In this document: in pieces, positions 14,136-43,690 of the stretch
How positions within the stretch are numbered: the stretch's first letter is position 1
How the letters are laid out: the number at the start of each line of letters is the position of its first letter
Virus record (IMG/VR): IMGVR_UViG_3300042691_009313
Coordinates: 1-50,870 of that record
Source: a virus
Reading direction: 5' to 3' (one strand)
Length of the DNA: 50,870 nucleotides
The notes under the pieces: model-generated
Seen by the model: the letters and a program-made list of their open reading frames with translations, nothing else
What the model was told of the DNA's origin: nothing
Database searches by the model: none
Program-made: the position numbers and the translations under genes

Positions 14136-15380
14136 ATGAACCGTGGAATGTATGGGTTCGCCCTACCTCCTAATTTTGCAACAAGATTAGCGCCACCTAA
14201 GTGGACTAACTGCAAAGTAATTACATCTACAACTTCTACTGAAACCGTTCCTTCTAATGTTTATCAAATGTTAGTTTGTGTTTGGGGTGGTGGCGGTTCC
14301 GGTGGTAAAGGTAATGCTGGATATGGTGCTACAGGTGGTGGTGGGGGTGGTTTTGCAATGGGGGTTATTGATGTAATACCCGGCCAAGTACTTCCAACAA
14401 TTACTATTGGTGCAGGTGGAGCGTCGCAAACCTCAAATTCATCTGCAGGCAATGCTGGTGGAACATCTTCATTTGGTTCGTTATTGACCGCTACTGGTGG
14501 CAACGCTGGTCAGTTTGGCGGAACCGCTGCAACAGGAGGTTCTGGAACCGCATCTAGCAGTTTAAGAAATCCATTCACCGCATCGGGTGGCTCCAGCGGT
14601 ACTGGTATTGGTAGTGGAGGTTCTGGTGGCGCAACAGGTGGTGGCGCATCTGGTTCACCTTATGGTAACGGTGGTAATGGCGGTTCAATTGTTAGCGGGA
14701 ATACAACGAGCACGGTAAGCACTGGTGGCGGTGGTTGGCGTGGTGGTAATGGTGGTTATGCTGCTAGTGGCGCAAACGCGGGTAGTGGTGGTGGCGGAAT
14801 TGGTACAAACGGAGGTGCTAATTTTGGTAGAAGTGCAAGTGGTGGAGGGGGTACTTCTTCTGGTGGTTCTGCCAATCCTGCTTCCCTTAATATAGGTGCT
14901 TCTGGTGGCGGACCGTTTGGGGGATCTGCGTCACAACTTTCAACTACATCCCCATATCCAATGTCTGTAGCAAATTCAAATGGTGGTGGCACAGGTGATT
15001 TATTAGACATAGTGTCGTTTACCATAAATGGCGGTGGTGGTGCTGGGGGTATGTGTAATTCCAATATTGGTGAATTTACTGGTGGTGGTTCTGGTGGTCC
15101 CGGAGGTGGCGGCGGTGGCGGAGGTGCAGATGTAAGTTCAGGCACTCCGGCTCCCGGAGGAGGCGGTGGTATAGGCGGTGGTGGTGGCGGTGGCAACCCG
15201 GGAGGTTATGGAGGCTTTGGTGGCGGTGGCGGTGGCTCTCGTGGTCGTACTGCCGGTGGCGGTGGTGCTGGCGGCTTGGGTGGTGGTGGCGGTAGCGGAG
15301 TTTGGGATAGTGATTCTGCTCAACCAAGTGGTGCTGGTGGCTCTGGCTGCGTGATTCTTTATTGGACAGAAGGATATTGA
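14136..15380 (+). CDS. Glycine-rich putative adhesin/receptor-binding protein, copy 1
   Basis: A 414-residue protein with a short conserved head (residues 1-45, MNRGMYGFALPPNFATR, then WTNC) and strands around YQMLVCVWGGGGSGG. About 330 residues follow that are dominated by Gly, Ser, Ala, Thr and Asn in runs such as GGGGGGGADVSSG, and it ends in a hydrophobic strand CVILYWTEGY. Gly-rich repeats of this kind are known from phage adhesins that pack as polyglycine helices or form exposed loops. The head and tail sequences are shared with the paralogue at 16113. Host-receptor binding is inferred from location and composition. Confidence 0.75.
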   Translation: MNRGMYGFALPPNFATRLAPPKWTNCKVITSTTSTETVPSNVYQMLVCVWGGGGSGGKGNAGYGATGGGGGGFAMGVIDVIPGQVLPTITIGAGGASQTSNSSAGNAGGTSSFGSLLTATGGNAGQFGGTAATGGSGTASSSLRNPFTASGGSSGTGIGSGGSGGATGGGASGSPYGNGGNGGSIVSGNTTSTVSTGGGGWRGGNGGYAASGANAGSGGGGIGTNGGANFGRSASGGGGTSSGGSANPASLNIGASGGGPFGGSASQLSTTSPYPMSVANSNGGGTGDLLDIVSFTINGGGGAGGMCNSNIGEFTGGGSGGPGGGGGGGGADVSSGTPAPGGGGGIGGGGGGGNPGGYGGFGGGGGGSRGRTAGGGGAGGLGGGGGSGVWDSDSAQPSGAGGSGCVILYWTEGY

Positions 15381-16112: not shown

Positions 16113-17333
16113 ATGAACAAGGGAATGTACGGCTTCGGACTGCCACCTAACTACGCAACCCGAGTAGCACCTGCGGTATGGACTAATTGTCGTCCATATA
16201 TAAGATCAGGTACGTATAACGATTTTGTTGTACCTCAAAACGTATATCAAATTATGGTCTGCGTATGGGGTGCTGGCGGCGGTGGAAGCGCCAATTCGTC
16301 AGGTATTGATTCTCTGTTTCCTCGTGGTGGGGATGGCGGCGGTTATGCGCAGGGGATTATTGACGTAGTTCCCGGACAAGTTTTAGACACAATTACTGTT
16401 GGTGCAGGCGGTGCTGGCGGGAGTCATGCAAATGGATCTGCTGGTGGAACTTCATCTTACGGCACATTATTGACAGCTACTGGCGGCGCTGGCGGTGTGC
16501 GAAATTCAGTATCCGCAGGTTCACCCGGAACAGGAACCGCAGCTTCAAATTTAAGGCAAGCCTATACAGCCACTGGCGGTGCAGGTGGTAGCGTTTCATC
16601 AACTATTTCTAATAATCGTGCAACTGGCGGCGGCGGTGCAGGTTCTATTTATGGAACTGGTGGGAGTGGCGGACCTAATAGAACCGTTGATTTTTCAATA
16701 GAAGCTGTCGGTGGCGGTGGGTTTGGTGGTAATGGTGGTTTTGCAAGTGGTTTTGCAGGCACTGGTGGTGGAGGGTTAAAAGACGGAGGTTTTTCAAACC
16801 AAGGTGGGGGTGGGGGTGGTTCTGCAAGTTCTGGAAGCGGTCAAGCTGGTGGGGGTCCAAGTGGAGGAATTCCACCAAACTTTTCTACAACGTCATCAGC
16901 AACAGTTACATTTATTGGCCCATCTAACGCTCCCGGGTTAGCAATTTCAAATCCTTATTTACAGTATTGGGCGCTGTGTGGTGGTGGCGGAGGCGCTGGA
17001 AGAGGGAACAATACCTATAACATTACTGGTGTTGGTGGTAGCGGAAGTTTTGGTGGTGGTGGCGGTGGCGCACAGTCAAGCAGTATTGAATGTTATGGGG
17101 GTACTGGCGGCTTTGGTGGTGGTGGCGGTGGTGCAACCAATAGTAGCTCACTAACAAGTGGAGGTGCTGGCGGTTTTGGTGGTGGAGGTGGTGGAGCATG
17201 GGGTTCTTCATCTACATCAAGAGGCGGCCCCGGCGGCAATGGTGGTGGCGGCGGTGCTGCATGGAACTCAACCGGTATAGGCGGTAATGGCGGCGATGGA
17301 GCAGTTCTCTTGTATTGGACCGAGGGCTACTAA
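16113..17333 (+). CDS. Glycine-rich putative adhesin/receptor-binding protein, copy 2
   Basis: A 406-residue paralogue of the 14136 protein. It has the same head (MNKGMYGFGLPPNYATR, then WTNC), the same strand with MVCVWGAGGGG, a shared IIDVVPGQVLDTITVGAGGA segment, and the same end (LLYWTEGY). The middle, exposed, glycine-rich part has diverged strongly in sequence and in the position of its runs. Keeping the ends and varying the middle suggests that the ends hold the fold and attachment while the middle carries specificity. Confidence 0.75.
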   Translation: MNKGMYGFGLPPNYATRVAPAVWTNCRPYIRSGTYNDFVVPQNVYQIMVCVWGAGGGGSANSSGIDSLFPRGGDGGGYAQGIIDVVPGQVLDTITVGAGGAGGSHANGSAGGTSSYGTLLTATGGAGGVRNSVSAGSPGTGTAASNLRQAYTATGGAGGSVSSTISNNRATGGGGAGSIYGTGGSGGPNRTVDFSIEAVGGGGFGGNGGFASGFAGTGGGGLKDGGFSNQGGGGGGSASSGSGQAGGGPSGGIPPNFSTTSSATVTFIGPSNAPGLAISNPYLQYWALCGGGGGAGRGNNTYNITGVGGSGSFGGGGGGAQSSSIECYGGTGGFGGGGGGATNSSSLTSGGAGGFGGGGGGAWGSSSTSRGGPGGNGGGGGAAWNSTGIGGNGGDGAVLLYWTEGY

Positions 17334-22680: not shown

Positions 22681-23159
22681 TTACTCTTCTCTCTACCCTT
22701 ATATCCTTCCTGATGGGCGGTCTGCCCAAGATTCTGGATTTTTTTCAGGACAAATCCGATAAGGCCCACGAGCTTCAGTTAGCCCAAATGCAGACCGAGC
22801 GGGAGCTAAAGATGCTTGCTGCCGGGTACGCTGCGCAGGCTAGGGTGGAAGAGATCCGGACTGATCAGGTGGCGATGCAGACTGCCGTCCAAGAACGCCA
22901 AGCCCTGTACGCCCACGACATCGAGATTGGCAAAGGTGCATCCCAGTGGGTCATTAACGCTAGAGCGATGGTGCGGCCCACCATTACCTACGGGATGTTT
23001 GTTCTGTTTGCCTTCGTGGAGTTCTTTGGGTTCTTCTTTGCTTACCATCGTGAGGTGCCGTTTGATCAGGCGCTGGAGATTCTTTGGGACAACGAGACCC
23101 AGATTATTTGGTCGTCTGTGGTGGCATTCTGGTTCGGAACGCAAGCGTTTAAAAAATGA
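22677..23159 (+). CDS. Holin of the GTA 3TM type
   Basis: A 160-residue protein started at ATG 22677 (overlap ATGA; GGAG eight bases upstream; ATG 22671 would be too close to that site). It has an N-terminal hydrophobic segment (LLSTLISFLMGGLPKILDFF), a charged central helix (about 25-95), and two C-terminal hydrophobic segments with VRPTITYGMFVLFAFVEFFG and IIWSSVVAFWFGTQAF. The WVINARAMVRPTITY block resembles the GTA_holin_3TM family. It probably makes the membrane lesion for lysis. The stop overlaps the lysozyme start. Confidence 0.76.
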   Translation: MITLLSTLISFLMGGLPKILDFFQDKSDKAHELQLAQMQTERELKMLAAGYAAQARVEEIRTDQVAMQTAVQERQALYAHDIEIGKGASQWVINARAMVRPTITYGMFVLFAFVEFFGFFFAYHREVPFDQALEILWDNETQIIWSSVVAFWFGTQAFKK

Positions 23160-23662
23160 AAACGTCGGAAAACGGCATCCACGTAATGCACCAGTTTGAA
23201 GGGTATCGTGACCGACCCTATTTGTGCCCTGCATCAATATGGACCGTGGGCTGGGGCGAGGTGCTGCATCAAGAACAGATTCGCCTGCCTGTAGTACGCA
23301 AAGAAGGCTACAACGGAATGATAAGAAAGGAGTTTCCCCTTGCACCAGAACACAATCGGGTATGGTCAAAGCCAGAACTGGAGGAACGCTTCAAGAATCT
23401 CCTCGGCAGTTTTGAGCGTGGTGTTCTTCGACTTGCCCCTAATTTATCTGGCCGTCAAGGCTTGTTCGACGCTTGCGTTGCTCTTAGCTACAACATAGGC
23501 GTGGGTGGATTTCAAAGGTCTACTCTTCGCCAACGGATACTTAGGGACGAGCCATTGGAAAGTATTGCTGATGGCTTTATGATGTACATAAATCCCGGCA
23601 GCGCTTTTACTAAAGGGTTGATACGTCGCCGCAAGGCCGAAATCGCTTTATTTATGAGCTGA
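23156..23662 (+). CDS. Endolysin, GH24 lysozyme with Glu-Cys-Thr active site
   Basis: A 168-residue lysozyme that cuts the beta-1,4 bond between MurNAc and GlcNAc in peptidoglycan. The N-terminal helix ends in QFEGYRDRPYLCPASIWTVG: catalytic Glu15, then nine residues on Cys24 (Asp20 in T4 lysozyme), then Thr30 (Thr26 in T4). The C-terminal lobe contains FDACVALSYNIGVGGFQRST, typical of GH24. No signal peptide or SAR segment is present, so release needs the holin. It lies directly after the GTA-type holin with a 4-bp overlap. An insert at about residues 44-75 makes it longer than minimal GH24 enzymes. Confidence 0.88.
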   Translation: MKTSENGIHVMHQFEGYRDRPYLCPASIWTVGWGEVLHQEQIRLPVVRKEGYNGMIRKEFPLAPEHNRVWSKPELEERFKNLLGSFERGVLRLAPNLSGRQGLFDACVALSYNIGVGGFQRSTLRQRILRDEPLESIADGFMMYINPGSAFTKGLIRRRKAEIALFMS

Positions 23663-29829: not shown

Positions 29830-30843
29830 ATGGCAACTACGACCTCAACCATAACTGGTGAAATACCAGAGGTACTACAGCCGTACTACACAGGTACGGC
29901 GACCCAACCGGGACTTATACCGAAAGCGTTTGAATTCTATAGCCGCCCATATCAGGCGGTTTATGGTACTGCGCTTGAGCAGGCAGGGTTGGCGGGTTCT
30001 GGTCGCGTTGCTGGGTTAGCTCCGTTTCAAACTCAAGTAGGTACAGAGCTTGCAGGGATGGGTACTCCGTCCCAGTTTGGAACAGCCGCTGGATACGGCC
30101 AAGGTGCAGGTAACGTATTTGGGACATTAAGCGGGGTACAGGCTCCCACGGTTGGTATTGGGTCAATTACAGGGCAGGGGATGCTTGGTGCGTACATGTC
30201 ACCGTACATGTCGCAAGTTGTTGAACAGCAAAAAGCCGCCGCCCAACGTGACGCACAGCGTGCGCAGCTTGCTCAAAATTTAGCCGCCCCCAAATCTGGT
30301 ACTTATGGTGGCGCACGGCAGTTACTGGCAGGGCTTGAGCGTGAGCGGGGATTAGCCAGCCAGCTAGGTAGCATCGAAGCCCAAGGTCGGCAGCAGGCTT
30401 ATCAGCAAGCATTGGGTCAATTTAATATTGAGAATCAGTTAGGACTGACCGCACAGCAGGCTAACCAACAAGCAGCATTGCAGGCCGCTCAACAGCGTCT
30501 AGCCGCAGGTCAAGGACTGGCTGGGTTGGCAGGTACTATGGGGCAGTTGGGCGTGGCACAACAAGCCACGGACCTTGACCGTCTTAAAACTATGGGCGCA
30601 TACGGTGACCTGCAGCGTGGCGTTCAGCAGCAGCGTCTGGATCTACAGTATCAAGATCTTATGCGTCAGCTTGGGTATCCTGAGCAACAGATTTCTGGCA
30701 TTTCTAATGTGCTTCGTGGGGTGCCTATGTCAGATCAAACGCAGCAAGTTACGACACCTCCGCCAAGTTTTGCCAGCCAGCTTGCAGGTCTGGGTTTATC
30801 TGGTCTTGGTCTGTACAACATGTTTAATCAACCTGCGAGGTAA
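29830..30843 (+). CDS. Ejection/internal virion-type protein
   Basis: A 337-residue, Gln/Ala/Gly-rich helical protein. After EVLQPYYTGTATQPGLIPKA comes a Gly-rich region with FYSRPYQAVYGTAL, then long helices (about 125-250, EQQKAAAQRDAQRAQLAQNL). The C-terminal block is MRQLGYPEQQISGISNVLRG, which is recurrent in the ejection region of environmental phages. No membrane segment is clear. Very few acidic residues and high Gln/Ala content match internal proteins that leave with the DNA. Role is inferred from position between the 911- and 568-residue proteins. Confidence 0.7.
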   Translation: MATTTSTITGEIPEVLQPYYTGTATQPGLIPKAFEFYSRPYQAVYGTALEQAGLAGSGRVAGLAPFQTQVGTELAGMGTPSQFGTAAGYGQGAGNVFGTLSGVQAPTVGIGSITGQGMLGAYMSPYMSQVVEQQKAAAQRDAQRAQLAQNLAAPKSGTYGGARQLLAGLERERGLASQLGSIEAQGRQQAYQQALGQFNIENQLGLTAQQANQQAALQAAQQRLAAGQGLAGLAGTMGQLGVAQQATDLDRLKTMGAYGDLQRGVQQQRLDLQYQDLMRQLGYPEQQISGISNVLRGVPMSDQTQQVTTPPPSFASQLAGLGLSGLGLYNMFNQPAR

Positions 30844-30848
30844 GTAAC

Positions 30849-32555
30849 ATGGCTTATGGAATTCCACGTTCTAACTCCAGTTTGATTGCGCAAGAGCAAC
30901 GTATTCTTAGCATTCCGTCTGATCCTAAAGAACAAATGCTGGCGCAGTACATCACCAAACTAGCCCAACAAAACAAAGTTGGTACGCCTGAGTACTTTAT
31001 AGCGGCTGGTGAATTTCAAAACCGTCAAAAAATTAGACAAGAACAAGCCGCTAAACAAGGACAACCACCACCAGTAGCACAACAAATTAACCAACAAGCT
31101 GCTGAAATTGCCCAAGAGCAAGGCGTTGCTCAACTGCCGGTTGGTGGGATAGGCGAGATTGGAAATTACACTGGTGCCATCGGCGGTATTGTGGCGTTTG
31201 AAGATGGTGGGGAAGTTCAGCGTTTTCAAGGGCAAGGCCCGTCATTTGTGCAATCTGCATCTAGCCCGTTTAGACGTGACATTCAAGCATTTAGTGAAGC
31301 AGGGCGGCGTTCAATGTTAGAAAGAACTCCGGGTATGGTAGGCGCATACGACAGACCGTTAATTAGTGCTGAAGAAGATGAACGGATGCGTTTGATACAG
31401 TTACTAAATCAAAAGTTTGGAGCGCAGGGTTCTTTAATCCAAGGTTATTTTATGGATCAATCCCCAGAACAACGCGTGCAAGCTAAAAACATTGTAAGTA
31501 GGCTTCCTAGTATGTCACTTGCTGAACTTCGTAGTTTAGCGAATACAACAGGCACAACAACGCCAACGGCAGCACCTGCAGCAGCGCAAACAACAGGCCA
31601 ACGTTTTGTGGGATCTGATGTTCAAGGTAGTGGTGCGGATGTTCGTAAATCAGATATTGCCGCAGGTGGGCAGAATAGCCCTGCCATGCCTTCGCAGGTT
31701 GCACCTTATATTCCAAAAAGTATGGAGCTGAGTAATTTAACGCCTGCCCCCGTGCCTATTGAAACAGTATTACAACGCGCTAATCAAATTGTTAAAAATT
31801 CAATGGGTGCTGCACCTAGCGAACTTACAACTAAAGAAGGTATTGCCAACGTGCAAGGAGCGTTGAAAGAAGCTGGTTTTGATCCTGCATTTCATCAAAA
31901 ACAAATTGCAGATTTGCGTAAAGAAAAAGAAGGCATCAAAGGTGAACGGCAGGAAGCTATTAACTTACGTCTCATTGAGGCTGGCTTGGGCATACTAGGC
32001 GGTGAGTCGCCGTACGCGTTTGTTAATGTGGGTAAAGGTGCATCTCCTGCGCTTAAAGGATTGCAGGAAGACTTTAAAGATATTAAGAAAATTGACCGGG
32101 AGCGTGATAAAGCGATCCGTGATCTTCAGACTGCTGAACAAGATCTTAAAAAATCTACCGGGTTGGCAGGGTTGGCTGAAGTGCAAAAGAGCCGTGAACG
32201 TGTTGACAGGTACAATGAACTTCGTACCAATAAAGAGCTTAGCGTCTTTAACACAATTTACAATGGCATGGTGCAAGAGCGTATTGCTGCAATGCCAACT
32301 CAAGATGTTCGTTCAGCTATGGCGTTTAAAGATCGCCCTGATCTTTTGGAAATTTATAAAAGCATGCAGGCTTCTCGGTACGGCGGGGCTAACAAAGTTA
32401 GCGCGGCAATTTTACAAGACTACGCTAAGAATCCTCGTAAACTAGAAATGTTGAAAGACATAGATCCTGATATGTATAACTACATAAAAGCAGAATTAGC
32501 AGCACTGGCTGTACCATCTGTTTCAGGACGTCCAACCGGAACCGTACGCGAATAA
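30849..32555 (+). CDS. Ejection/internal virion-type protein with coiled coil
   Basis: A 568-residue protein. The N-terminus is helical and polar (residues 1-100, PKEQMLAQYITKLAQQ), followed by IGEIGNYTGAIGGIVAFEDG, which contains a FEDGG motif. A Pro/Ala/Thr linker lies near 233-245. The C-terminal half is coiled coil, with the conserved-looking block AGLGILGGESPYAFVNVGKG (about 378-397) and LKGLQEDFKDIKKIDRERDK. This block recurs in other aquatic-phage ejection proteins. It precedes the giant protein by three bases and probably enters the host with it. Confidence 0.7.
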   Translation: MAYGIPRSNSSLIAQEQRILSIPSDPKEQMLAQYITKLAQQNKVGTPEYFIAAGEFQNRQKIRQEQAAKQGQPPPVAQQINQQAAEIAQEQGVAQLPVGGIGEIGNYTGAIGGIVAFEDGGEVQRFQGQGPSFVQSASSPFRRDIQAFSEAGRRSMLERTPGMVGAYDRPLISAEEDERMRLIQLLNQKFGAQGSLIQGYFMDQSPEQRVQAKNIVSRLPSMSLAELRSLANTTGTTTPTAAPAAAQTTGQRFVGSDVQGSGADVRKSDIAAGGQNSPAMPSQVAPYIPKSMELSNLTPAPVPIETVLQRANQIVKNSMGAAPSELTTKEGIANVQGALKEAGFDPAFHQKQIADLRKEKEGIKGERQEAINLRLIEAGLGILGGESPYAFVNVGKGASPALKGLQEDFKDIKKIDRERDKAIRDLQTAEQDLKKSTGLAGLAEVQKSRERVDRYNELRTNKELSVFNTIYNGMVQERIAAMPTQDVRSAMAFKDRPDLLEIYKSMQASRYGGANKVSAAILQDYAKNPRKLEMLKDIDPDMYNYIKAELAALAVPSVSGRPTGTVRE

Positions 32556-32558
32556 AAT

Positions 32559-35500
32559 ATGGCCCAATACCTACCGCTTCCCGATGGTTCTTCACTAAAA
32601 CTGCGGGAGGGCGAAAGCCCCGCTCAAGGTTGGGCACGCGCTCAACGAACTTACCCGGAAGCTTTTGCTGTTGCTAAGCCTGCTGAAGAACCTCAAGGCG
32701 GTTTTATTCCTGCTACTAAAGCAGGGGTTGCTAGCCTTAAATCTGACATAGCCGCACTGCTTGGACGTACTGGGCTTATTGATACTGGCACTGCTGAAAA
32801 GTACATGCAGGAACAGGAAGAGTATCAGCGCCGGGTATTTAAACCTACGGAAAAAGGTTTTTTGGAAGCCCCGGTAACAAAGGCTGCTGAGTTGTTAGGC
32901 GGATCACTCCCGTATATGGCGGCTCCAATTGTAGCGGGGGGTGCTGCTGTAACGGCGCCTGTGTCTGCACCTGTGGCTACGGCTCTTGGTGTTGGTGCAG
33001 CAGGACTTACATCAGCGGCACAATTTACCGGCTCTAACATTGCACGTCAGGTTGAAGAAGGTAAGCGTCTTCAGGAAACAGAACTTGGTGCGGCTGCAGC
33101 CGCTGCTGTACCGCAAGCGGCGTTGGACATGCTGTCATTTAAGATGATGCCGGGAATTCGCCGCATTTTTATGCAGGCTGGCAAAGACGTACCTGAAGCG
33201 GCTGCTAAACAGATTGCTGAACAAAATGTACGCGAAGTAATTAAAGACTACTCACTTGCTACGGGTAAGTCTATGGGAGTTGAAGGGCTTACAGAAGCAG
33301 GGCAACAAGTCCTTGAGCGCTTGCAGGCGGGTTTAAACATTACAGACGCTGAAGCTAGAGATGAGTATTTTGAAAGCTTTTTGGGCGGCGCCATACTTGG
33401 TGGTGCGATTTCTCCGGCTGGTCGTTTTATTGAACGCGGTAGTCAACAACGTAAACAGGAAGCTGAAGCTGCGCGGTTGCGTGTGGAAGAACAGCGCAAA
33501 CTTCAAGAGCAAAAAGATCGGGAAAGGGCTGGTGAACTTGGTGCACCGCTGTTAACAAAAGAAGAAGCAGAAAGACCTTTATTTGTTGATAGTGAAGGAA
33601 AGCCTGCCAAGTTTACGGATCTGCAGGAACGGGAGCGGATGCTCCAAGAAAAAGAACAAGCTAAAACAAATGCACAACAACAATACACAGAGATTACCAA
33701 AACCATCAATGAACTGCGTGAGCGCGCGCAAACGGCTGGACGTAATAAATCAATTGAGTTAGGGCAAGAAGCTCAACGACTTGAAAAGCTTAAAGATGAT
33801 TTAGAAAAACGTGTTGCTGACAAGAAAGACCCACTGTACAAAACTAAGCTGGAACCGTTTACGCAACTGACACAGGAAGAAGCGGAGAAAAAACTTACTC
33901 CTTACGACGCGCTAGAAGCGCAGATTAAAAGAGCGCAGGCTGCATTTGACAAGGCTAAAGACCAAGGCGATGTGATTGCGCAGGGTAAAGCAGCACAAAA
34001 ATTAAAAGATCTTCAGGAAGAATTGCGGGGTACTACGCCTGATTTGTTTGGTATTGAAGGTCAGGAACAGATAGCCGAACGAGCAAAAGCAGAGGCTGAA
34101 GCCATTGACGTTGTAACGCTTACCAATCTTCTTAATCTTGTAGATCAAAAACGCAAGCTGCGTGAAGAACGCCGTGATGTAGGACAGGAAGAAGAACTCA
34201 AACGCTTAGAAGCTGGCCTAGATCGTATGGGTCTTGGTGTTTTGGGTGTTACCGGCGAAGACCGCATTAAAGCAGAAGTTGATCTTGGTCAAGGTTTTAT
34301 TAGCCCTGCAATGGCTGAAAAACTTGGTATATACGATGATCAATTTAACGCGCTTCAAGCTCGTCTTGCAAAAGCTGCTACGCCGGAAGAAGAAAAAACT
34401 GTTAAAGATGAAATAAAGGCGCTTAAAGAAAAGGCCAACGATCCTACCCGTGCTGTTGACGTGTTGGATAATATTGAAACAGCATATCAAAATGCGTTGG
34501 CTAAACAAAAAGAAACCGTAGATGCGTTGGCTCAAGAAAAACCAACGTTAAAGATTTTTGATGCCAAAGGGCAACTTACCCCCAAAGGCAAATTAGCTGT
34601 AGCTAATGAAGCTATTTTGCGCCAGCTTGCGCAACTGCGGCGCTTAGGCCGTGAATCTAAAGAAACGTTAGAAAGCCAACGGGCTGAAGATTTGTTTGCT
34701 GCAGCGCCTTTAAAACGCGATGTAGAAGCAGAAGCCCGCACAGAAGCATTTGGCAAAGCTGTCACACAAACGGGTAAGCCAATTGAAGGTATATCTGAAA
34801 AACAACGGCAGGCAGAAGCAGAAAAAGGTCCAGCTTTTACCAGCCGTAATGAAGCCTTTGAAGAATTTACTGATGCCGCCTATTCTTTACAGCGAGGCCA
34901 GTTTCTTGGTAAACGCACTGGTGTAACGGCCCCTGAAGCAGAACGGCAGCGGGTTGAGGCTTTACAAAAGAAAATTAATAAAGTTGAAGACGATCTTAAA
35001 TTTTTGCGTGGGCAACAAGTGCGGGTAGGAAGGCAGCAAGCGCCAGCAGTTCAAACTCGTATTGCGCAACTAGAAGGCAGACTAAAAACTCTTAAAGCGG
35101 GGCTTGGTGAAGAAAAAGTAGAAAAAGCTACTGCCCGTAAGTTGTTGATACAAAAAGCAGAACGTGCAGCCGATTACCTAATTAACAACGCCATCAACGA
35201 AGTAAAAGCGGATCGGGTGGCTCGTGGGTTAGGTGAGATGCCCGCTGCTGAAGCACGTACTTTAGAAACCAAACTGCGGATTGAGTTTAATCAATTCATA
35301 GACCGTGTCAGTGCGGCAGAGCGTACTACAGGTGAAATGGAAGAAAGACCTGTTGTCAAAGTTGTTGACGGTAAAATAGTAACCACCACGAAGACTGAAC
35401 TTGCACCTAAGCGGCCTTCTATTGAACAACGCCCTTACGAAAAATTAGGTCCAGCGCTTAAAACATTGCGCGGTGAGTTAGAGGCAACAGTTACTGAAGC

Positions 35501-38500
35501 TAAGGGTTTACCCGCTAAAGGTGAATTTGCAGAAGAAAAAGTTGAGGTTGCTAAACCAGTTAAAGAAAAGCCGGTTAAAACTACTAAGAAAAAAATAGCC
35601 GAGCGCCAGAAAGCAGCAAAACATGAAGTTCGTAAACGCGAAGCTATTTATGCGGGTAAACAAGTTATTGCTGACAACCAGAAAAAAATACGCGACGCAG
35701 AACAGCGGCTTAGAACCCTTGGTTCTGAAATAGCGCGTTTAAGAAAAGCCGCTACGGGGGATAAAAACCCACAAATGCGTTTGGCTAAAGCAGAACGTAT
35801 TGAAGTTGAAATGGATTCCGTTCGTGCTAACTTACTTGAATTACGTAATACAAACAAAACACTAGCGGCGGCTATGCGTACGCTAGGTGTGCCAACAGGA
35901 TCATCTAAGAGCGGCGCTTATCTTCTTGACATGATTGAAAACGATGAGCCTGTTAATGCGGATGAACTAACAGAAGCTGGAGTTGAATCGGCAGTTAGTA
36001 AGCGTGTAACTGAATTGCAAAAAACACGGGACATTCAATTAAAAGAACTGGCGCTTGAAGAAACTAAACTTGCTGCATTAAAACGTAGGTTGAGTTTAAA
36101 TAAATTTTTTGGTGGACCGTTAACAACAGAAAAGCAGTTGAACAATTTGCGAAAGCAGATTGAGTTTCAAGAACGTGTTGTTGGACAAGCTAAAGGCGAC
36201 GTTAATGTAACAAAGAAAGCAATTTTTGCAGCCCTACGCCTTAGCGACGTTACAATACCGCAGCTTCGTAGGGAAGTTGCTACTAAGCAACGTTATGTAA
36301 AAGAAGACGAAGCTAAACTTAAAGCGTTGGAAAACAGGGCTAAGTTTTATAAAACTGTTCCTGACTCGCTTAACAATGAGATTGCTGCTCAGAAAGAAGT
36401 GCTTGCCCAATCAAAGGTAAAACTTGTTCGTGCAGAATCAGAACTTGACAGCGGTTTAAAAGCTGTCGCAGAACAAAAGCAACTTAAAAAAGAAATAAAA
36501 GAAAAAGGCACATCCCGCTTTACTGACTATGAGTTAATTACCGCCGCTAGATTTTTGATGTCGCGTATTGACCAAGTAATTGAACGCATGGGGACAAGAC
36601 AAAAAGTAGTGCCCGAAGGTGATCGTTTAATTAAAGCGCAGCTTGGCACTATTACGGCGCCTAGCGGTAAGACATTACCCGGCGTTAGGGTAACTACTGA
36701 AATGGAATGGTCAGCCAAAGCTCTTAATGAAACGGCTGAACAGGAACGTGAACTGTATCAAAAGCAGTACGAAGAAGCTGTTACTGAACGAGATTCAATT
36801 GCTGAAAAACTACGGGCTGCAGGCAAACCTATTCGTGGGGATGAAGCATACGAAAAGGCTGCAGCTAAGGCTCGTAATTTAGCTAGGTCTAAAAAAGCGG
36901 TTAGAGATTTTGTTTATGGCTATGTACCTATACGAACTGAACAACAGATTTTTGCTACGGACGCGGATGCAAAAGAAGTATTAGGTCAACGGCAAAGACA
37001 AACCGCTGACTTTGTGCAAGATAAACCGTTAGACGCAGAAGAAATTGCAAAAGATGTACATGCCATGCTTGTAGAAAACGTACGGCTGGCTGAAGATGCT
37101 TTAAGAAACATTCCTGCGGGCGATAAAAACGCCATCAAAAAAGCTAAGGGTGCTCTTACTCGCGCACGTAATCAATTAAGCAAGGGTTCTATTTATAAGA
37201 TTCGATCAACTTTGACAGAAGCTGATTTGATTGAGCAAGCGTCTGAAGTTGGAACAGATGAACTGCTTGAAATTGATGCTGGCACTATGTCTGATCAGGA
37301 CATTATTAATGCCATTGACTACAAAGATGACACAATTGATCCCCGGTTTGGTGAAGAACCAACGGAAATTATTGATGAAGAAGAAGCTAATAAGCTGTTG
37401 GCTAACGTAAAAACCAAAGCTAAGGCACAGGATATTGAGTTTGAATACTACGACAGCGTAGAAAAACTACCCATTGGTATCCGTAAACAGATGGCAAAGC
37501 AGGGTATGGATACTGTAGCTAGTCAGCTCAAGGGCGGCGTGTACAAAGGTAAAGTGTTTGTTATTGTGCAAAATCACAACGACATCACTGATTTACAACA
37601 GACGCTAGCGCATGAATTGGTAGGACACTATTCGTTTGATGGGCTGCTTGGTAAAGAAGGCATGATCAAGCTGTCACAACAAATTGATAGAACACCTGAT
37701 GGGTTGGCAAAACTTGCCGAACAACTTGGCGGTACAAAATTTAAAGAGCAAATTGAAGGCGTATTTATTGACACCATTCGATACTATAAAAAAGCATTTG
37801 AAGATGGCAAAATAACAGACGCTCAGATCAGGGCTAACGCTAAGATCAAAGCTTTGCGGGAGATGATTGCCTACACTATGGAGAAGAAAGTAACTGCTTC
37901 TCGCATGGAAAAATTAAAATCTTGGTATAAAGAACTTGTTGGCGCTATGCGCGCGGCACTTCGCAAGCTAGGTATAGATCTTAAAATTAGTACCAGTGAC
38001 CTGTTCTACTTAATGAAACAGGCGCAACAGAATTTTGAAGCCGGTAAGCCTGTTGCCTATCGTGATGTTGACGACACAATTTCATTCCGCAGAGGACCGG
38101 AACCGCCTAAGACCGGCCTTGGTGCTATGGTGGCTCCTCGTGGTAAACCGTTTGACACAATCAAAGCCAACCTGCTTGGCTTAAATTTCCGCGTGCAGTT
38201 TGTGGACAGGCTGGCGGCGTTGGATGCGCTAGTTAAGCGCGGGGTAGATGCTGGACTGATTGATTCGATTAAAGCTATGGACGTGTTGTACTTCAGTCGT
38301 AAGGCTGACCAACGTAACAATATGACTGCCCAGTTTGTAACCAACGGAGTTGGCAAGATTGCCAAAATAAACGGAGAGTACCAATACGTTGGCGGTGAAG
38401 GCCCAAGCATGAAGGATGTATCAGAGGCTCTTAACAAGTCTGGGCTGTCACCAAAAATTGTTGAAGACGAATTTACCCAGTATGAGATTGCCCTGCGCGC

Positions 38501-40670
38501 TAAAGACGTTGGGGTAGACAAGCTGGACTTCACTAAACAAAAAGTTACGCAGCAAGACGTTGATGCAACGATAGCCAAGTACTCAGGCAAAGATCCTGCA
38601 AGCTTGGCATTTCAGGAAGCGCACAAGCTTTATCAACAGTACAACCGTAATCTGATTGATTTCTTAGTTTCTTCCGGAGCTTTGTCTGCTGTTGAAGGTG
38701 CTCGGTTAAAAGGCATGAACTACGTTCCGTATTACCGAAAACGTGGTGGTGCTATGGAGTTGGTTGTGTTTGGTGAGCAACCGATCCGAATTGGAGATAT
38801 GAAAAACCAACCCTACTTAGAACAACTTGTTGGTGGAGAAGAAAAAATTCTGCCCATATTTACTGGCGCTGTACAGAACACGCAGTTGCTTGTTGATATG
38901 GCTATGAAAAATATGGCAACCCGCAACACAGCGTTTGTGTTAGCTGAGATGGGTCTGCTAGATGTTAGCGAAAAACAAGCGGCAAAAGGTTTGACAGGTA
39001 TGCATAAAGGCATGGGGCCAGCAGATGCAAATGTGATTCGCTTTAAGCTTGACGGTGATGACATGTGGGCGCGGGTCAATGTCGAAGCTAAGAAAGATAT
39101 TTTTGGTGACATCCCCACAGAGTTAGTTGTGACTGGTATGGAAGGCATCAAAGCTACATTACCTGTTGGCATCCGTTTGTTGGGTATGCCTGCTAACTTG
39201 TTACGTAAGCTTGTCACCCGCGATCCTCGTTATGCGGTGCGTCAAATCTTCCGTGACTCTATGTCGGCTGTCCTGACTACTGGTGCTAATTTTGTGCCTG
39301 TGGTACAGACAATTAAAGACATAACTACTATGAAAAAGGGTGAGGCGTACAAGAAACTGCAAGAGTCCGGCTCGCTTGGCGGTCAGGTTGTTACTGGCGC
39401 TACGGATGACATGGATAAAATCCTGTTGCAAATAGCGTCGGGTAAACGTGGCTGGACAAGGGCGATGGCTAAGCTGGATGAACTTGCCATGATGGGTGAT
39501 GCAGCAACTCGTGTGTCCATGTACAACTCGTTTATTAAACAAGGGCTGTCTGAGCGAGAAGCTGACTTTGCCACGATGGAGGCGATGAACTTTAGTCGCC
39601 GCGGATTGTCCCCCAGCATCTTGTATGCCAACACAATGATTCCGTTCTTTAACGCAGGTGTTCAGGGTATTGATGTTTTATACCGAGCGTTCAAAGGCGA
39701 CATGCCATCCAGTCAACGGCTTCAGATCCAACGTAAGTTGTGGATGCGTGGATTGATGATGGCCGGTATGACGTTGGCATATGCTGCTGCTATGGACGAC
39801 GATAAGACGTACGAAAACGCTAACCCAGATGAGCGCTACAACAACTGGTTTGTGCCAACGCCGTTAGGTACGTTACGCGTACCTATCCCGTTTGAAGCTG
39901 GTTTCATCTTCAAGGGCATCCCAGAAGGTGTGTATCGCATGGCGTTTACGGACGATAAAAATGAGGATGTGCTGAAGGCACTGAAAGACTTGGCTGTACG
40001 AAGCGTTCCGGTTGATATGCCCACCGCAATTAAGCCTGTCGTTGAATTGATGCTTAACCGTTCGTTCTTCACAGGTCGGGAGATTGTGGACAAGTCTATG
40101 TCTGAAATTGCCAAGTACCAGTACCGTCCCAACACGCCTGAAACCATTAAGCTGTTTGGTGAGATCGGCATTTCCCCCGCTAAGGTGGAATACTTTATCA
40201 AAGGGTACACAGGATCACTACCGCTTGGTCTGATCGGCGCTATGGAAACGGTGACGGGCATCCGATCTATGGATAAAGAAAAACCCACCATGCGGATCTA
40301 CGAGGCGCCAATTGTTGGTGGCTTGTTCCAACCGCCTGATGCTTCGGGCATGATTAACCGCGCCTTTGAAACTGTGAACCGTGCACAGGGAGCGCAGGCT
40401 ACATATAATCGTTTATCTGAATCTGATCCAGAAGAAGCCGCCGAGTTCTTAAAACAGAACATGAAAGATATAGACATCGGACAGTTTGCCGGGCAGTTCC
40501 GGCAGGAGATGGGGGAGATTACAGCTTACGAGCGATATGTTCGTGAGAGTCGTAGCCTTTCCGCTGACGAAAAACGTAGGCGCTTGGATAAACTGAAGCA
40601 GGAAAAAATTAATTTGGCGAAAGACTTTAATAAGTTTAACGCACAAATAGAACGCCAAGCTGCCCGTTAA
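32559..40670 (+). CDS. Giant polyvalent-type ejection protein with HEXXGH metallopeptidase motif and LPD38-like domain
   Basis: A 2,703-residue protein, by far the largest in the window. The N-terminus (PDGSSLKLREGESPAQGWAR) is typical of large phage ejection and polyvalent proteins. A Gly/Ala hydrophobic region at about 110-165 could cross a membrane. Residues about 300-1600 are charged helices and coiled coils. At 1685-1690, HELVGH matches the HEXXGH zinc motif, and Glu1768 (LREMIAY) is a suitable third ligand. Residues about 2200-2555 resemble the LPD38 domain of large polyvalent proteins (LRKLVTRDPRYAVRQIFRDS; MNFSRRGLSP). Polyvalent proteins are injected with the DNA and act on host defence or DNA entry; enzyme activity here is inferred from motifs. 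Confidence 0.8.
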   Translation: MAQYLPLPDGSSLKLREGESPAQGWARAQRTYPEAFAVAKPAEEPQGGFIPATKAGVASLKSDIAALLGRTGLIDTGTAEKYMQEQEEYQRRVFKPTEKGFLEAPVTKAAELLGGSLPYMAAPIVAGGAAVTAPVSAPVATALGVGAAGLTSAAQFTGSNIARQVEEGKRLQETELGAAAAAAVPQAALDMLSFKMMPGIRRIFMQAGKDVPEAAAKQIAEQNVREVIKDYSLATGKSMGVEGLTEAGQQVLERLQAGLNITDAEARDEYFESFLGGAILGGAISPAGRFIERGSQQRKQEAEAARLRVEEQRKLQEQKDRERAGELGAPLLTKEEAERPLFVDSEGKPAKFTDLQERERMLQEKEQAKTNAQQQYTEITKTINELRERAQTAGRNKSIELGQEAQRLEKLKDDLEKRVADKKDPLYKTKLEPFTQLTQEEAEKKLTPYDALEAQIKRAQAAFDKAKDQGDVIAQGKAAQKLKDLQEELRGTTPDLFGIEGQEQIAERAKAEAEAIDVVTLTNLLNLVDQKRKLREERRDVGQEEELKRLEAGLDRMGLGVLGVTGEDRIKAEVDLGQGFISPAMAEKLGIYDDQFNALQARLAKAATPEEEKTVKDEIKALKEKANDPTRAVDVLDNIETAYQNALAKQKETVDALAQEKPTLKIFDAKGQLTPKGKLAVANEAILRQLAQLRRLGRESKETLESQRAEDLFAAAPLKRDVEAEARTEAFGKAVTQTGKPIEGISEKQRQAEAEKGPAFTSRNEAFEEFTDAAYSLQRGQFLGKRTGVTAPEAERQRVEALQKKINKVEDDLKFLRGQQVRVGRQQAPAVQTRIAQLEGRLKTLKAGLGEEKVEKATARKLLIQKAERAADYLINNAINEVKADRVARGLGEMPAAEARTLETKLRIEFNQFIDRVSAAERTTGEMEERPVVKVVDGKIVTTTKTELAPKRPSIEQRPYEKLGPALKTLRGELEATVTEAKGLPAKGEFAEEKVEVAKPVKEKPVKTTKKKIAERQKAAKHEVRKREAIYAGKQVIADNQKKIRDAEQRLRTLGSEIARLRKAATGDKNPQMRLAKAERIEVEMDSVRANLLELRNTNKTLAAAMRTLGVPTGSSKSGAYLLDMIENDEPVNADELTEAGVESAVSKRVTELQKTRDIQLKELALEETKLAALKRRLSLNKFFGGPLTTEKQLNNLRKQIEFQERVVGQAKGDVNVTKKAIFAALRLSDVTIPQLRREVATKQRYVKEDEAKLKALENRAKFYKTVPDSLNNEIAAQKEVLAQSKVKLVRAESELDSGLKAVAEQKQLKKEIKEKGTSRFTDYELITAARFLMSRIDQVIERMGTRQKVVPEGDRLIKAQLGTITAPSGKTLPGVRVTTEMEWSAKALNETAEQERELYQKQYEEAVTERDSIAEKLRAAGKPIRGDEAYEKAAAKARNLARSKKAVRDFVYGYVPIRTEQQIFATDADAKEVLGQRQRQTADFVQDKPLDAEEIAKDVHAMLVENVRLAEDALRNIPAGDKNAIKKAKGALTRARNQLSKGSIYKIRSTLTEADLIEQASEVGTDELLEIDAGTMSDQDIINAIDYKDDTIDPRFGEEPTEIIDEEEANKLLANVKTKAKAQDIEFEYYDSVEKLPIGIRKQMAKQGMDTVASQLKGGVYKGKVFVIVQNHNDITDLQQTLAHELVGHYSFDGLLGKEGMIKLSQQIDRTPDGLAKLAEQLGGTKFKEQIEGVFIDTIRYYKKAFEDGKITDAQIRANAKIKALREMIAYTMEKKVTASRMEKLKSWYKELVGAMRAALRKLGIDLKISTSDLFYLMKQAQQNFEAGKPVAYRDVDDTISFRRGPEPPKTGLGAMVAPRGKPFDTIKANLLGLNFRVQFVDRLAALDALVKRGVDAGLIDSIKAMDVLYFSRKADQRNNMTAQFVTNGVGKIAKINGEYQYVGGEGPSMKDVSEALNKSGLSPKIVEDEFTQYEIALRAKDVGVDKLDFTKQKVTQQDVDATIAKYSGKDPASLAFQEAHKLYQQYNRNLIDFLVSSGALSAVEGARLKGMNYVPYYRKRGGAMELVVFGEQPIRIGDMKNQPYLEQLVGGEEKILPIFTGAVQNTQLLVDMAMKNMATRNTAFVLAEMGLLDVSEKQAAKGLTGMHKGMGPADANVIRFKLDGDDMWARVNVEAKKDIFGDIPTELVVTGMEGIKATLPVGIRLLGMPANLLRKLVTRDPRYAVRQIFRDSMSAVLTTGANFVPVVQTIKDITTMKKGEAYKKLQESGSLGGQVVTGATDDMDKILLQIASGKRGWTRAMAKLDELAMMGDAATRVSMYNSFIKQGLSEREADFATMEAMNFSRRGLSPSILYANTMIPFFNAGVQGIDVLYRAFKGDMPSSQRLQIQRKLWMRGLMMAGMTLAYAAAMDDDKTYENANPDERYNNWFVPTPLGTLRVPIPFEAGFIFKGIPEGVYRMAFTDDKNEDVLKALKDLAVRSVPVDMPTAIKPVVELMLNRSFFTGREIVDKSMSEIAKYQYRPNTPETIKLFGEIGISPAKVEYFIKGYTGSLPLGLIGAMETVTGIRSMDKEKPTMRIYEAPIVGGLFQPPDASGMINRAFETVNRAQGAQATYNRLSESDPEEAAEFLKQNMKDIDIGQFAGQFRQEMGEITAYERYVRESRSLSADEKRRRLDKLKQEKINLAKDFNKFNAQIERQAAR

Positions 40671-40824
40671 GAACGCCGACAAAACCTTTGGCATCAAACG
40701 TTCGACTAGCGACAGCGGCTCTCATTCCTTCTTCGTAAGTCTTGGTGGTGTCGAGGCAGGGTACAAAAAACCCCTGCCCCTTTTTAAGCTGCGACCAAGG
40801 ATAACGGACTGTCAGGCTCTTCAT
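40636..40824 (-). CDS. Small conserved phage protein overlapping the terminator
   Basis: A 62-residue protein. The pattern RYPWSQLKKGQGFFVPCLDT, then EEGMRAAVASRTFDAKGFVG and the end GQLGVLFVR is one I recognise from a family of small phage proteins of unknown function. It starts inside the end of the primase-helicase gene in another frame (41-bp overlap) and ends 35 bases inside the opposite-strand giant gene. The codons for GQGFFVPCL contain the hairpin of the plus-strand terminator. There is no strong ribosome binding site, so translation is probably coupled to the primase-helicase. It is the last gene of the minus-strand block. Confidence 0.72.
   Translation of the reverse strand: MKSLTVRYPWSQLKKGQGFFVPCLDTTKTYEEGMRAAVASRTFDAKGFVGVLNGQLGVLFVR
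40755..40785 (+). terminator. Rho-independent terminator of the plus-strand block
   Basis: A 7-bp perfect stem (GGCAGGG pairing with CCCTGCC), a 10-base A-rich loop, then CC and five T. It lies 85 bases after the stop of the giant gene and ends the long virion transcript. On the minus strand the hairpin has no following T-run, so it acts in one direction. The stem lies inside the coding sequence of the small minus-strand gene at 40636-40824. Confidence 0.82.
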
Positions 40825-43690
40825 CTAGGCTTACGCGTCTTGAAATCTTTATTGCGTTGACTCGCATCTGCGGGCCTTTGGTTTTGCTCATCAAGTCTTT
40901 CTTCAGGTAGCTGACGTTATATTCGGTTTCCATCTGCTTTTTAAAGTCCGAATACCCGAAACTCATGCCGGAGCAGTACTTCTTCAGCAACTGTTCTTCG
41001 ATGTAGTAGTCCACGTGCCCCGGCGTCACGCCGTGTTCTACCCGCCCAAAGATTTCGCTGCGGGTAATGCTCTGATCAATGAGACCTTCTTCGCCAATAG
41101 ACGCAGCCAGCGCACCCTCCAGCGCCTTGACCACCACCATTTTGCCGTAGTACTCCCGTGTGTAGGCGTTCAGGACGTCTTCTGCTGTACGTACGTTATC
41201 GCGCACCATGCGCTTGGCGTCGTTTACCATGCCCTTGAGCACCCCGATAATGCCTTCCATTGGGAAGTTGGCTATGCCAGCCTTGGATGCCAAGATAGCG
41301 CCCATCACTAGGCAGGTGCAGCCTGAAATCCAGAAGCGCTCATCATCAATCAACCCGAACTCAGTTTTGATTTTTTTGCGGATTTTCGTGTACATGGCTG
41401 GTAGTTCTTCCGCATGATCCACCAAATACTGCGCATAAACGTGCCCTGCCACGCCGTAGGTATCGCTAAGCATTTCCAAAACTTCCAGCTCATGCGTTTC
41501 CCACGAAAGCTTTTTCTCAAGCGTTAACTCCAGCACCCGCCGTGTTTCGCCCTCTGATGAGTGCTTGCGTGCGCCGGTCAGATAGTCCATAACGTGTGTG
41601 TTGGAGGACAGTAGGCACATCGTGTGCCAGTAGGTCTTGTTCTCCCGTTCTTTATCCGCGCCGGACTCCATACGGCTCTTGCCGATGCCTTCAGACAAAT
41701 CAAAAATAAACTTTGCCACCCATTCAAAGTCATCTCGGTTTTTGGATGTAATCTCATCGGAGATCAGCGGAAGGCTAAACAACATACCCGTACGCTGCTT
41801 CATGGCTACATCGGATGTGGAGTTGCTGATTCGGTACCGGCTGGGGTGTCCCCAAACTGAGCCTGCTAGTTCAAGACTTAATGTTTTTCCTGTACCGGTA
41901 GCCGTTGAGCCAAGGTGAAAGGTGATGCCAGCAAACTTTGAGAACTTCATCAGCGGGGCGCCAAAGCCGACCAAGCAGAATGTCAACATCTCGTATAGCT
42001 TTTTGGCAGTCAACATGTTGATGATCTTCTGCCAGTTTTCTAACGACCCGGTTGGTTGGCAGGCGTTGTTGATGTTGATTAGCCCCCGCATGGGGATGCG
42101 TAGTGGGTCCATGCCCTGACGGTAGATGCGTTCGTTAAACACGAAAGACTTGTCAGGTTGCCAGCCGTAGTGGTCAGGAACTATGACTACCCGCTTACCC
42201 ACACTGGCGTCTTCTACGCAGCCACGGACGTAATCAAACAGGTTCTTGTCGTTGCCCTGCCCGTAGGAGGCGATGATGTTCTGCTCAGCCAAGCACTTGA
42301 CCGTCTCCACGCTGGATACGACGGCTTTCTGGGGCAGCATGACTTCTGTAACCCCTTCGGGGCGTAGCGCCAGCATGTGAACGATGTGCTCGTTTTCCAG
42401 CCTCAGTATGTTTACTGCAAACAAACTGTAGGGAAGCACCATGATCTGCTTGTTGACCTCGTTCCCATCGGCATCTTCGCCCTTAGTATCTTTGAAGATC
42501 GCCCCGTTCTTGCCGTAAGAAAAGCCCCGTGGAGCCACTGGGCGCTGGACGACTATGGGGTGGGGTGTCTCCGTCTCAGACTCAGCCGTAGGGGCTGGAG
42601 TTTGCGGCTCAATGACGATTTCTTTGGCCTCAGTTTCCACCTCCAGCTTGCGGCCAAGGGCCAGCGGGTTGGTGATCTTGCCGAAATGGGGACAGCCTGT
42701 GCAGATGCCGGGGTTCTCGGTATCAAACTTTGTGCAGGGGTACGGGCCTTTGATCTCCCGTAACTTCTGCGCCATCCGGTCAGGCTCGTAGGGGTGCATT
42801 TCAGACAGCCGCAGCGCCCACTCCCCACCGTCATCACACTTCTGAGCGATGGACAGCAGCCCCCGCCACAGGGGTTCCATGCCGTCGTTGGTGGCGTTGT
42901 CGATGTAGTGCTTCAGTTGACCGCAGCCTGTGCCAGCCTCGGTCTTTTCATGGATGACCTTGAAGTAGGTGGCGCTGTTTTCAAACAGCTTTAGCGCCGT
43001 GGCGTTGGCTGCAGCCTTGGGCTTTTTACCCGGCAGGCTAAGGGCTGTCTCCTCATAGGTCTGCACCTTGAGTTTGGACTTAATGAATGCATCCAGTTCA
43101 GCCAGCGAATACTTGCGGCTGGACTCAATGATGACCTTGACGGGACGCTTGTCCTCGGTGTTGTAGTTAATGGTGGACGGTACGCGTAGCACACGGGAGG
43201 CATCGGCAGATACGGCAAAGTCAATCCGCAAGCCTTCCTGTTGACATAGCCGCTTGAAGTTCTCAGCCACCGGCTTCCAGTCAGCCACATCGGTGTCGGC
43301 ATCCAAGGGCCAGTACACGTGAAAGCCGTTACCCGAAGCCACGACCAGCGGCTGACCAAGCATCGCCATCTCTGTGCCAAGCACGAACTTCTCGAACGCT
43401 TCTTGCGCCTGCTTCTTTGATGCATAAGAGCGAGCCGGATCTTTACCAACGTCCAGATCCATGAACAGCGACCGGACTTGTTTGGCATTGACGGCCAGCC
43501 GTCTTTCTTCCGAAAAGCTACACAGCGCAAAGTAAGCGTTGATCCCGCTGTCGCTAAGCTGCTTTACGTCTTTATACAGTTCCTCAATAGTATTGACGAA
43601 CCGATGTTCCTTCTTCTTAGTCTGAAACTCAGCCGCGCAATACAAACCAGAAGAAGGCAGTACCGCCGCTAGAAAATCTAACGGTTGCAT
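40784..43690 (-). CDS. Primase-helicase (AEP primase plus SF3/DUF927-like helicase)
   Basis: A 968-residue replication protein. The N-terminal domain is an archaeo-eukaryotic-type primase: metal-binding Asp78 and Asp80 in LFMDLDVG, the SGNGFHVYW block (119-127) and DASRVLRVPSTIN (163-175). A Cys cluster (Cys319, Cys330, Cys333 and His335 nearby) is likely zinc-binding. A DUF927-like helicase follows, with Walker A GSTATGTGKT (594-603), Walker B LISDE (642-646), sensor Asn697 and Arg717/718 as arginine-finger candidates. It would prime and unwind DNA at the replication fork beside the phage family A polymerase. It starts at ATG 43690. Confidence 0.85.
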   Translation of the reverse strand: MQPLDFLAAVLPSSGLYCAAEFQTKKKEHRFVNTIEELYKDVKQLSDSGINAYFALCSFSEERRLAVNAKQVRSLFMDLDVGKDPARSYASKKQAQEAFEKFVLGTEMAMLGQPLVVASGNGFHVYWPLDADTDVADWKPVAENFKRLCQQEGLRIDFAVSADASRVLRVPSTINYNTEDKRPVKVIIESSRKYSLAELDAFIKSKLKVQTYEETALSLPGKKPKAAANATALKLFENSATYFKVIHEKTEAGTGCGQLKHYIDNATNDGMEPLWRGLLSIAQKCDDGGEWALRLSEMHPYEPDRMAQKLREIKGPYPCTKFDTENPGICTGCPHFGKITNPLALGRKLEVETEAKEIVIEPQTPAPTAESETETPHPIVVQRPVAPRGFSYGKNGAIFKDTKGEDADGNEVNKQIMVLPYSLFAVNILRLENEHIVHMLALRPEGVTEVMLPQKAVVSSVETVKCLAEQNIIASYGQGNDKNLFDYVRGCVEDASVGKRVVIVPDHYGWQPDKSFVFNERIYRQGMDPLRIPMRGLININNACQPTGSLENWQKIINMLTAKKLYEMLTFCLVGFGAPLMKFSKFAGITFHLGSTATGTGKTLSLELAGSVWGHPSRYRISNSTSDVAMKQRTGMLFSLPLISDEITSKNRDDFEWVAKFIFDLSEGIGKSRMESGADKERENKTYWHTMCLLSSNTHVMDYLTGARKHSSEGETRRVLELTLEKKLSWETHELEVLEMLSDTYGVAGHVYAQYLVDHAEELPAMYTKIRKKIKTEFGLIDDERFWISGCTCLVMGAILASKAGIANFPMEGIIGVLKGMVNDAKRMVRDNVRTAEDVLNAYTREYYGKMVVVKALEGALAASIGEEGLIDQSITRSEIFGRVEHGVTPGHVDYYIEEQLLKKYCSGMSFGYSDFKKQMETEYNVSYLKKDLMSKTKGPQMRVNAIKISRRVSLDEEPDSPLSLVAA

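Follow-up and report, generated by a model that had tools for sequence, protein, structure and literature searches.

How giant phage proteins get through a narrow tail and then gain activity in the host cell is an open issue. What does a zinc-peptidase motif do inside a very large phage protein of the polyvalent type? The window, meaning the whole stretch of DNA that was analysed, is a complete, 50,870-base IMG/VR virus record and represents a tailed-phage contig. Its giant open reading frame reads without a stop over 2,703 residues, as the earlier note on this DNA had described, and the encoded protein is laid out as follows:

32559-40670, + strand: giant ORF, polyvalent-type protein with predicted zincin and LPD38, 2,703 aa
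32559-33503, + strand: N-terminal region, approximately residues 1-315, shared with relatives at good conservation (53% to L032, for example)
33504-37325, + strand: variable, highly charged middle region, approximately residues 316-1589
37326-38108, + strand: predicted zincin-like metallopeptidase domain of the HEXXXH clade, approximately residues 1590-1850
37611-37628, + strand: HELVGH motif, residues 1685-1690, with predicted zinc ligands H1685 and H1690 and predicted general base E1686
37860-37862, + strand: E1768, predicted third zinc ligand, invariant
38526-40658, + strand: conserved C-terminal LPD38-containing module, approximately residues 1990-2700
39801-40313, + strand: Pfam LPD38 (PF18857) match, residues 2415-2585, E=2.2e-25

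The PF18857 match, which scores 90.3 bits against a curated Pfam cut-off of 27, confirmed the C-terminal LPD38 part that had been suspected from the sequence. Residues 112-151 form a hydrophobic, Ala/Gly-rich stretch that may be a membrane segment, and the middle region, which has no family match and is poorly conserved between relatives, is a putative cargo or spacer.

Both HELVGH and Glu1768, the residues on which the earlier note had built its zinc site, are present in the translation, where HELVGH is the sole HE(X)2-3H sequence in a protein with seven His residues in total. Relatives were drawn from viral contigs, three bacterial genome contigs and phage records, and the alignment of 25 homologue domains, with identities to the window down to 15%, left only H1685, E1686, H1690, E1768, A1771 and E1775 as invariant columns. 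Across 72 homologues, collected by profile with a method that favours motif-bearing sequences, H1685, E1686, H1690, E1768 and A1771 were each found in 72/72 and E1775 in 71/72. The Gly of HEXXGH was present in 66/72 and replaced by Val or Ala in the remainder, so the conserved motif is HEXXXH and not strictly HEXXGH. In no complete protein chosen independently through LPD38 did a zincin profile match coincide with a broken motif. The earlier note had named loss of the motif beside retained neighbouring sequence as evidence against its proposal, and motif decay was seen in no complete relative. Judged from its invariance across diverged homologues, the HELVGH motif is more than a chance occurrence. 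The closest relative (L002) has HELIGH at this position, and its zincin is 77% identical to that of the window (dS saturated, dN 0.15), whereas the 123 residues preceding the zincin are 37% identical, such that identity jumps from 37% to 77% where the domain begins.

An AlphaFold2 model of the zincin domain built on 23 sequences (pLDDT 83.5, pTM 0.76) comprised, in domain numbering, a helix (27-43), strands (48-51, 77-82 and 85-89) and the motif helix (96-110), followed by a helix (174-195) that carries E1768 (domain residue 188). The model was compared with a zincin by its order of elements, which agrees. For the metallopeptidase (MPTase) core of polyvalent proteins, the same element order has been described, the last two helices being separated by a variable insert (PMC5512222). 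The LPD38 module was modelled poorly (pLDDT 59.6). No match to the zincin domain itself was obtained in Pfam, NCBIfam, PHROG or PADLOC scans, and neither Foldseek of the model against the PDB nor sequence searches against solved structures returned anything significant. The E-value for PF10026 (DUF2268), 0.026, is not significant. At E<=1e-3, a search of the viral structures in BFVD returned six hits, each of them a phage protein (annotated as large polyvalent protein, helicase and gene product 88 domain, one each, type I restriction enzyme, two, and one nameless), and large polyvalent proteins occupied ranks 7-9 and 11.

The HEXXGH form had led the earlier note to liken the domain to dipeptidyl peptidase III (DPP III, M49), and a captured enzyme of this type would share with the window zincin its His-X4-His spacing and downstream Glu. 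However, no M49 match was found in Pfam at E<=10, no solved structure was matched, the Gly that defines HEXXGH varies among the homologues, and the relatives recovered are phage polyvalent proteins. Given the missing M49 and structure matches and the non-conserved Gly, DPP III identity was rejected and is considered extremely improbable.

A better fit is offered by the HEXXXH metallopeptidases of polyvalent proteins described in 2017 by Iyer et al., one set of which has four residues separating the histidines (PMC5512222). The window zincin is a probable new member of this already known clade, as it features the HEXXXH spacing, a Glu on a later helix and a variable inter-helix insert, and likewise forms part of a large phage protein belonging to the LPD38-carrying class. 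Beyond the 2017 description, the present comparison links the domain to the LPD38 module in many relatives and sets it against an HEXXH type. Profile comparisons, whose E-values are for single comparisons, linked the HEXXXH zincin to the zincin of the phage N4 virion RNA polymerase (vRNAP) at 86.6% (4.4e-6), with a gap inside the motif, and linked the HEXXH type of LPD38 proteins to the same N4 domain at 97.3% (1.8e-11), whereas a control comparison of the LPD38 module with the N4 zincin gave 2%. In a single-sequence comparison, the window zincin mapped to residues 2211-2345 of the 3,500-residue N4 protein, which lie in its zincin region. When the HEXXXH and HEXXH types were aligned with each other directly, the result was weak (19.6%); the link between them rests on N4. 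By these comparisons, the window zincin is remotely related to the zincin of the ejected N4 polymerase. Collectively, the invariant ligand and catalytic residues, the model's zincin-like element order and this remote homology indicate that residues 1590-1850 very probably constitute an intact zincin-like metallopeptidase domain. The proposal of a zinc metallopeptidase within an LPD38 polyvalent protein is thus supported, whereas its strict HEXXGH signature is not.

The association between zincin and LPD38 was surveyed in loci picked by the LPD38 module together with LPD38-hit phage records, which yielded 74 non-redundant proteins. Among the 58 that were full-length (5′ end present), 40 featured HEXXXH, 16 HEXXH and two neither, so that HE(X)2-3H occurred in 56/58 against a shuffle mean of 0.67; the two exceptions are short and belong to one Pelagibacter-phage clade. 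Nine of ten 5′-open LPD38 proteins with at least 600 residues upstream also carried the motif (0.2 in shuffles), while it was absent from L070, a 5′-open protein with 825 aa before LPD38. When the survey was widened to 75 full-length proteins, a set that also takes in zincin-picked loci and is hence not independent, 70/75 had the motif, and each of these has no fewer than 978 residues ahead of LPD38; the other five, all with approximately 500 residues before LPD38, again fall within one Pelagibacter-phage clade, so their lack of the motif may reflect one loss event. Most proteins carry the motif 200-330 residues ahead of the LPD38 module, but some HEXXXH proteins have it 545-741 residues and about five HEXXH proteins (L071, L074, L101, L114 and L119) approximately 950-1,150 residues before LPD38. 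LPD38 proteins thus carry zincins of at least two types, HEXXXH and HEXXH.

Further arrangements were observed in individual proteins. Two Vibrio phage proteins (L043 and L046, from VvAW1 and 1.183.O) feature a zincin-like HEMAH followed by EGFAEFVRLWL, 234-243 residues before LPD38, in a region that does not match the HEXXXH profile. Achromobacter-type giant proteins (L015-L020 and L022-L026) have a second motif, HEWWHG, which precedes the HEXXXH zincin by about 230 residues in those carrying both, and the LPD38-bearing reading frame of L026 lacks the zincin.

The fresh point of this comparison is that a zinc-peptidase motif is retained in nearly every relative of the giant protein, in most cases shortly before the same C-terminal module, which suggests that the zincin cuts the giant protein itself. 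H1685, H1690 and E1768 would hold a zinc ion and E1686 would activate a water molecule, as expected from their invariance and from how zincins work. Acting in cis, the domain would cut the giant polypeptide near the junction of the middle region and the LPD38 module, either during assembly or after ejection, and the cut would let parts of the protein separate. Such self-processing is preferred because the domain sits at the border between variable and conserved sequence, because zincins of more than one type are found in nearly all long LPD38 proteins, and because the zincin is missing where the part upstream of LPD38 is short. Several of the same observations count against it: the motif-less proteins form one clade and may go back to a single loss, and a short protein offers the domain less space; L070 is motif-less; and in about five HEXXH proteins the motif is far from LPD38. 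Cutting by the zincin of an ejected giant protein near the middle region/LPD38 junction is therefore our leading but tentative reading, rated a little below an even chance. If true, a built-in peptidase that frees cargo from the C-terminal module would be a simple, testable step common to many phages, for which PTXU04 in laboratory E. coli is a convenient system.

Known phages bear on whether the protein reaches the host cell at all. The LPD38 giant protein of Burkholderia phage JC1, gp69, was detected in virions by mass spectrometry (PMC9144972). This protein and the Bcep22 DarB-like protein are LPD38 giants like that of the window, but differ in that lytic transglycosylase, LPD3, methylase-like and helicase domains have also been reported. 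Escherichia phage PTXU04 gp25 (2,198 aa) combines a homologous zincin (HEIIVH) with LPD38 (E=1.6e-38) and, like the window gene, is the last large gene of the late cluster, although the two zincins are only about 16% identical and BLAST matches the proteins in the C-terminal module only. Korf et al. assigned four bands of the PTXU04 virion, and gp25 was not among them (PMC6563267). In the Pelagibacter phages HTVC034P and HTVC204P, the LPD38 gene lies one or two genes, respectively, after an annotated internal virion protein and directly before the tail-fibre gene. By analogy, the most likely course for the giant protein of the window is packaging in the virion followed by ejection along with the DNA.

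A protein delivered in this way could also act on the host. The earlier note had favoured an anti-defence or cell-entry function, and the zincin might be an injected effector that cuts a defence, envelope or regulatory protein early in infection. The presence of JC1 gp69 in virions is compatible with this, host targeting has been named as a possible role (PMC5512222), and PTXU04 gp25 is essential, its knockdown as a Fit gene strongly lowering plating, and is listed among genes that are toxic to E. coli when expressed or that interfere with infection (PMC11879866). However, the essentiality of gp25 was measured in ordinary E. coli and could stem from another part of the protein, the window zincin has no defence-family match, and the occurrence of zincins of more than one type in nearly all long LPD38 proteins suggests a housekeeping function over a host-specific target. 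Nothing points specifically to anti-defence or entry, the comparative evidence fits self-processing better, and an injected effector is accordingly regarded as unlikely. Self-processing is favoured over both anti-defence and entry roles, with the self-cutting itself as the uncertain step.

A further difficulty for self-processing comes from N4. Like the window protein, N4 vRNAP (gp50) has a zincin (C1, residues 2124-2375) between cargo and a large C-terminal module, and it is an ejected giant protein, its cargo being an RNA polymerase; unlike the window protein, its zincin is HEXXH and its C2 domain has no similarity to the LPD38 module. Despite the intact and similarly placed HExxH zincin in its C1 domain, N4 vRNAP was reported to show no sign of degradation (PMC12633501), and it enters the virion unprocessed (PMC5512222), which by analogy speaks against obligatory cutting before ejection. 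For the zincin-bearing DdrB of phage P1, processing before packaging has been reported, according to work cited in PMC5512222. N4 also lends itself to a reading in which the domain serves folding, packaging or regulation, keeping its fold and perhaps its metal with no protease use: the C-terminal domain of vRNAP, zincin included, reduces transcription by the polymerase (PMC12633501), and the region with the N4 MPTase is needed for encapsidation (PMC5512222). However, the general-base Glu, which would be dispensable in a metal site of purely structural use, is retained throughout the 72 homologues, and we rate this role slightly less probable again than an injected effector. Self-processing thus remains the preferred reading, and a more elaborate form of it would be that LPD38 giants have a processing slot just before the module, filled by interchangeable peptidases (HEXXXH, N4-like HEXXH and VvAW1-type HEMAH) that free the cargo and are kept only where the cargo is long; this is a speculative extension that is possible but doubtful.

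The giant gene closes the forward late cluster, following two genes that are syntenic with it in relatives, and faces a convergent gene:

29830-30843, + strand: 337-aa protein upstream of the giant gene, with synteny to it kept in relatives
30849-32555, + strand: 568-aa protein immediately before the giant gene, with synteny to it kept in relatives
40784-43690, - strand: DUF927/primase-helicase-like protein, 968 aa, convergent with the giant gene

Neither upstream protein matched a solved structure, the 568-aa protein had no similarity to its Pelagibacter-phage counterpart, and the 337-aa protein had none to N4 gp52. A minus-strand ORF of 956-968 aa after the giant gene was also observed in L002, L009, L029 and L033. 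Elsewhere in the window, a 134-aa ORF just after the portal gene (1944-2348, + strand) matches a phage co-chaperonin GroES family (PHROG 3188, E=1.6e-8). Two tail-fibre-type proteins (14136-15380 and 16113-17333, + strand) have Gly-rich repeats in common, with 19 copies of a 40-nt family, and look like a duplicated, repeat-rich fibre gene. An endolysin-type ORF (23156-23662, + strand; PHROG 7, E=4.6e-29) lies within the structural cluster.
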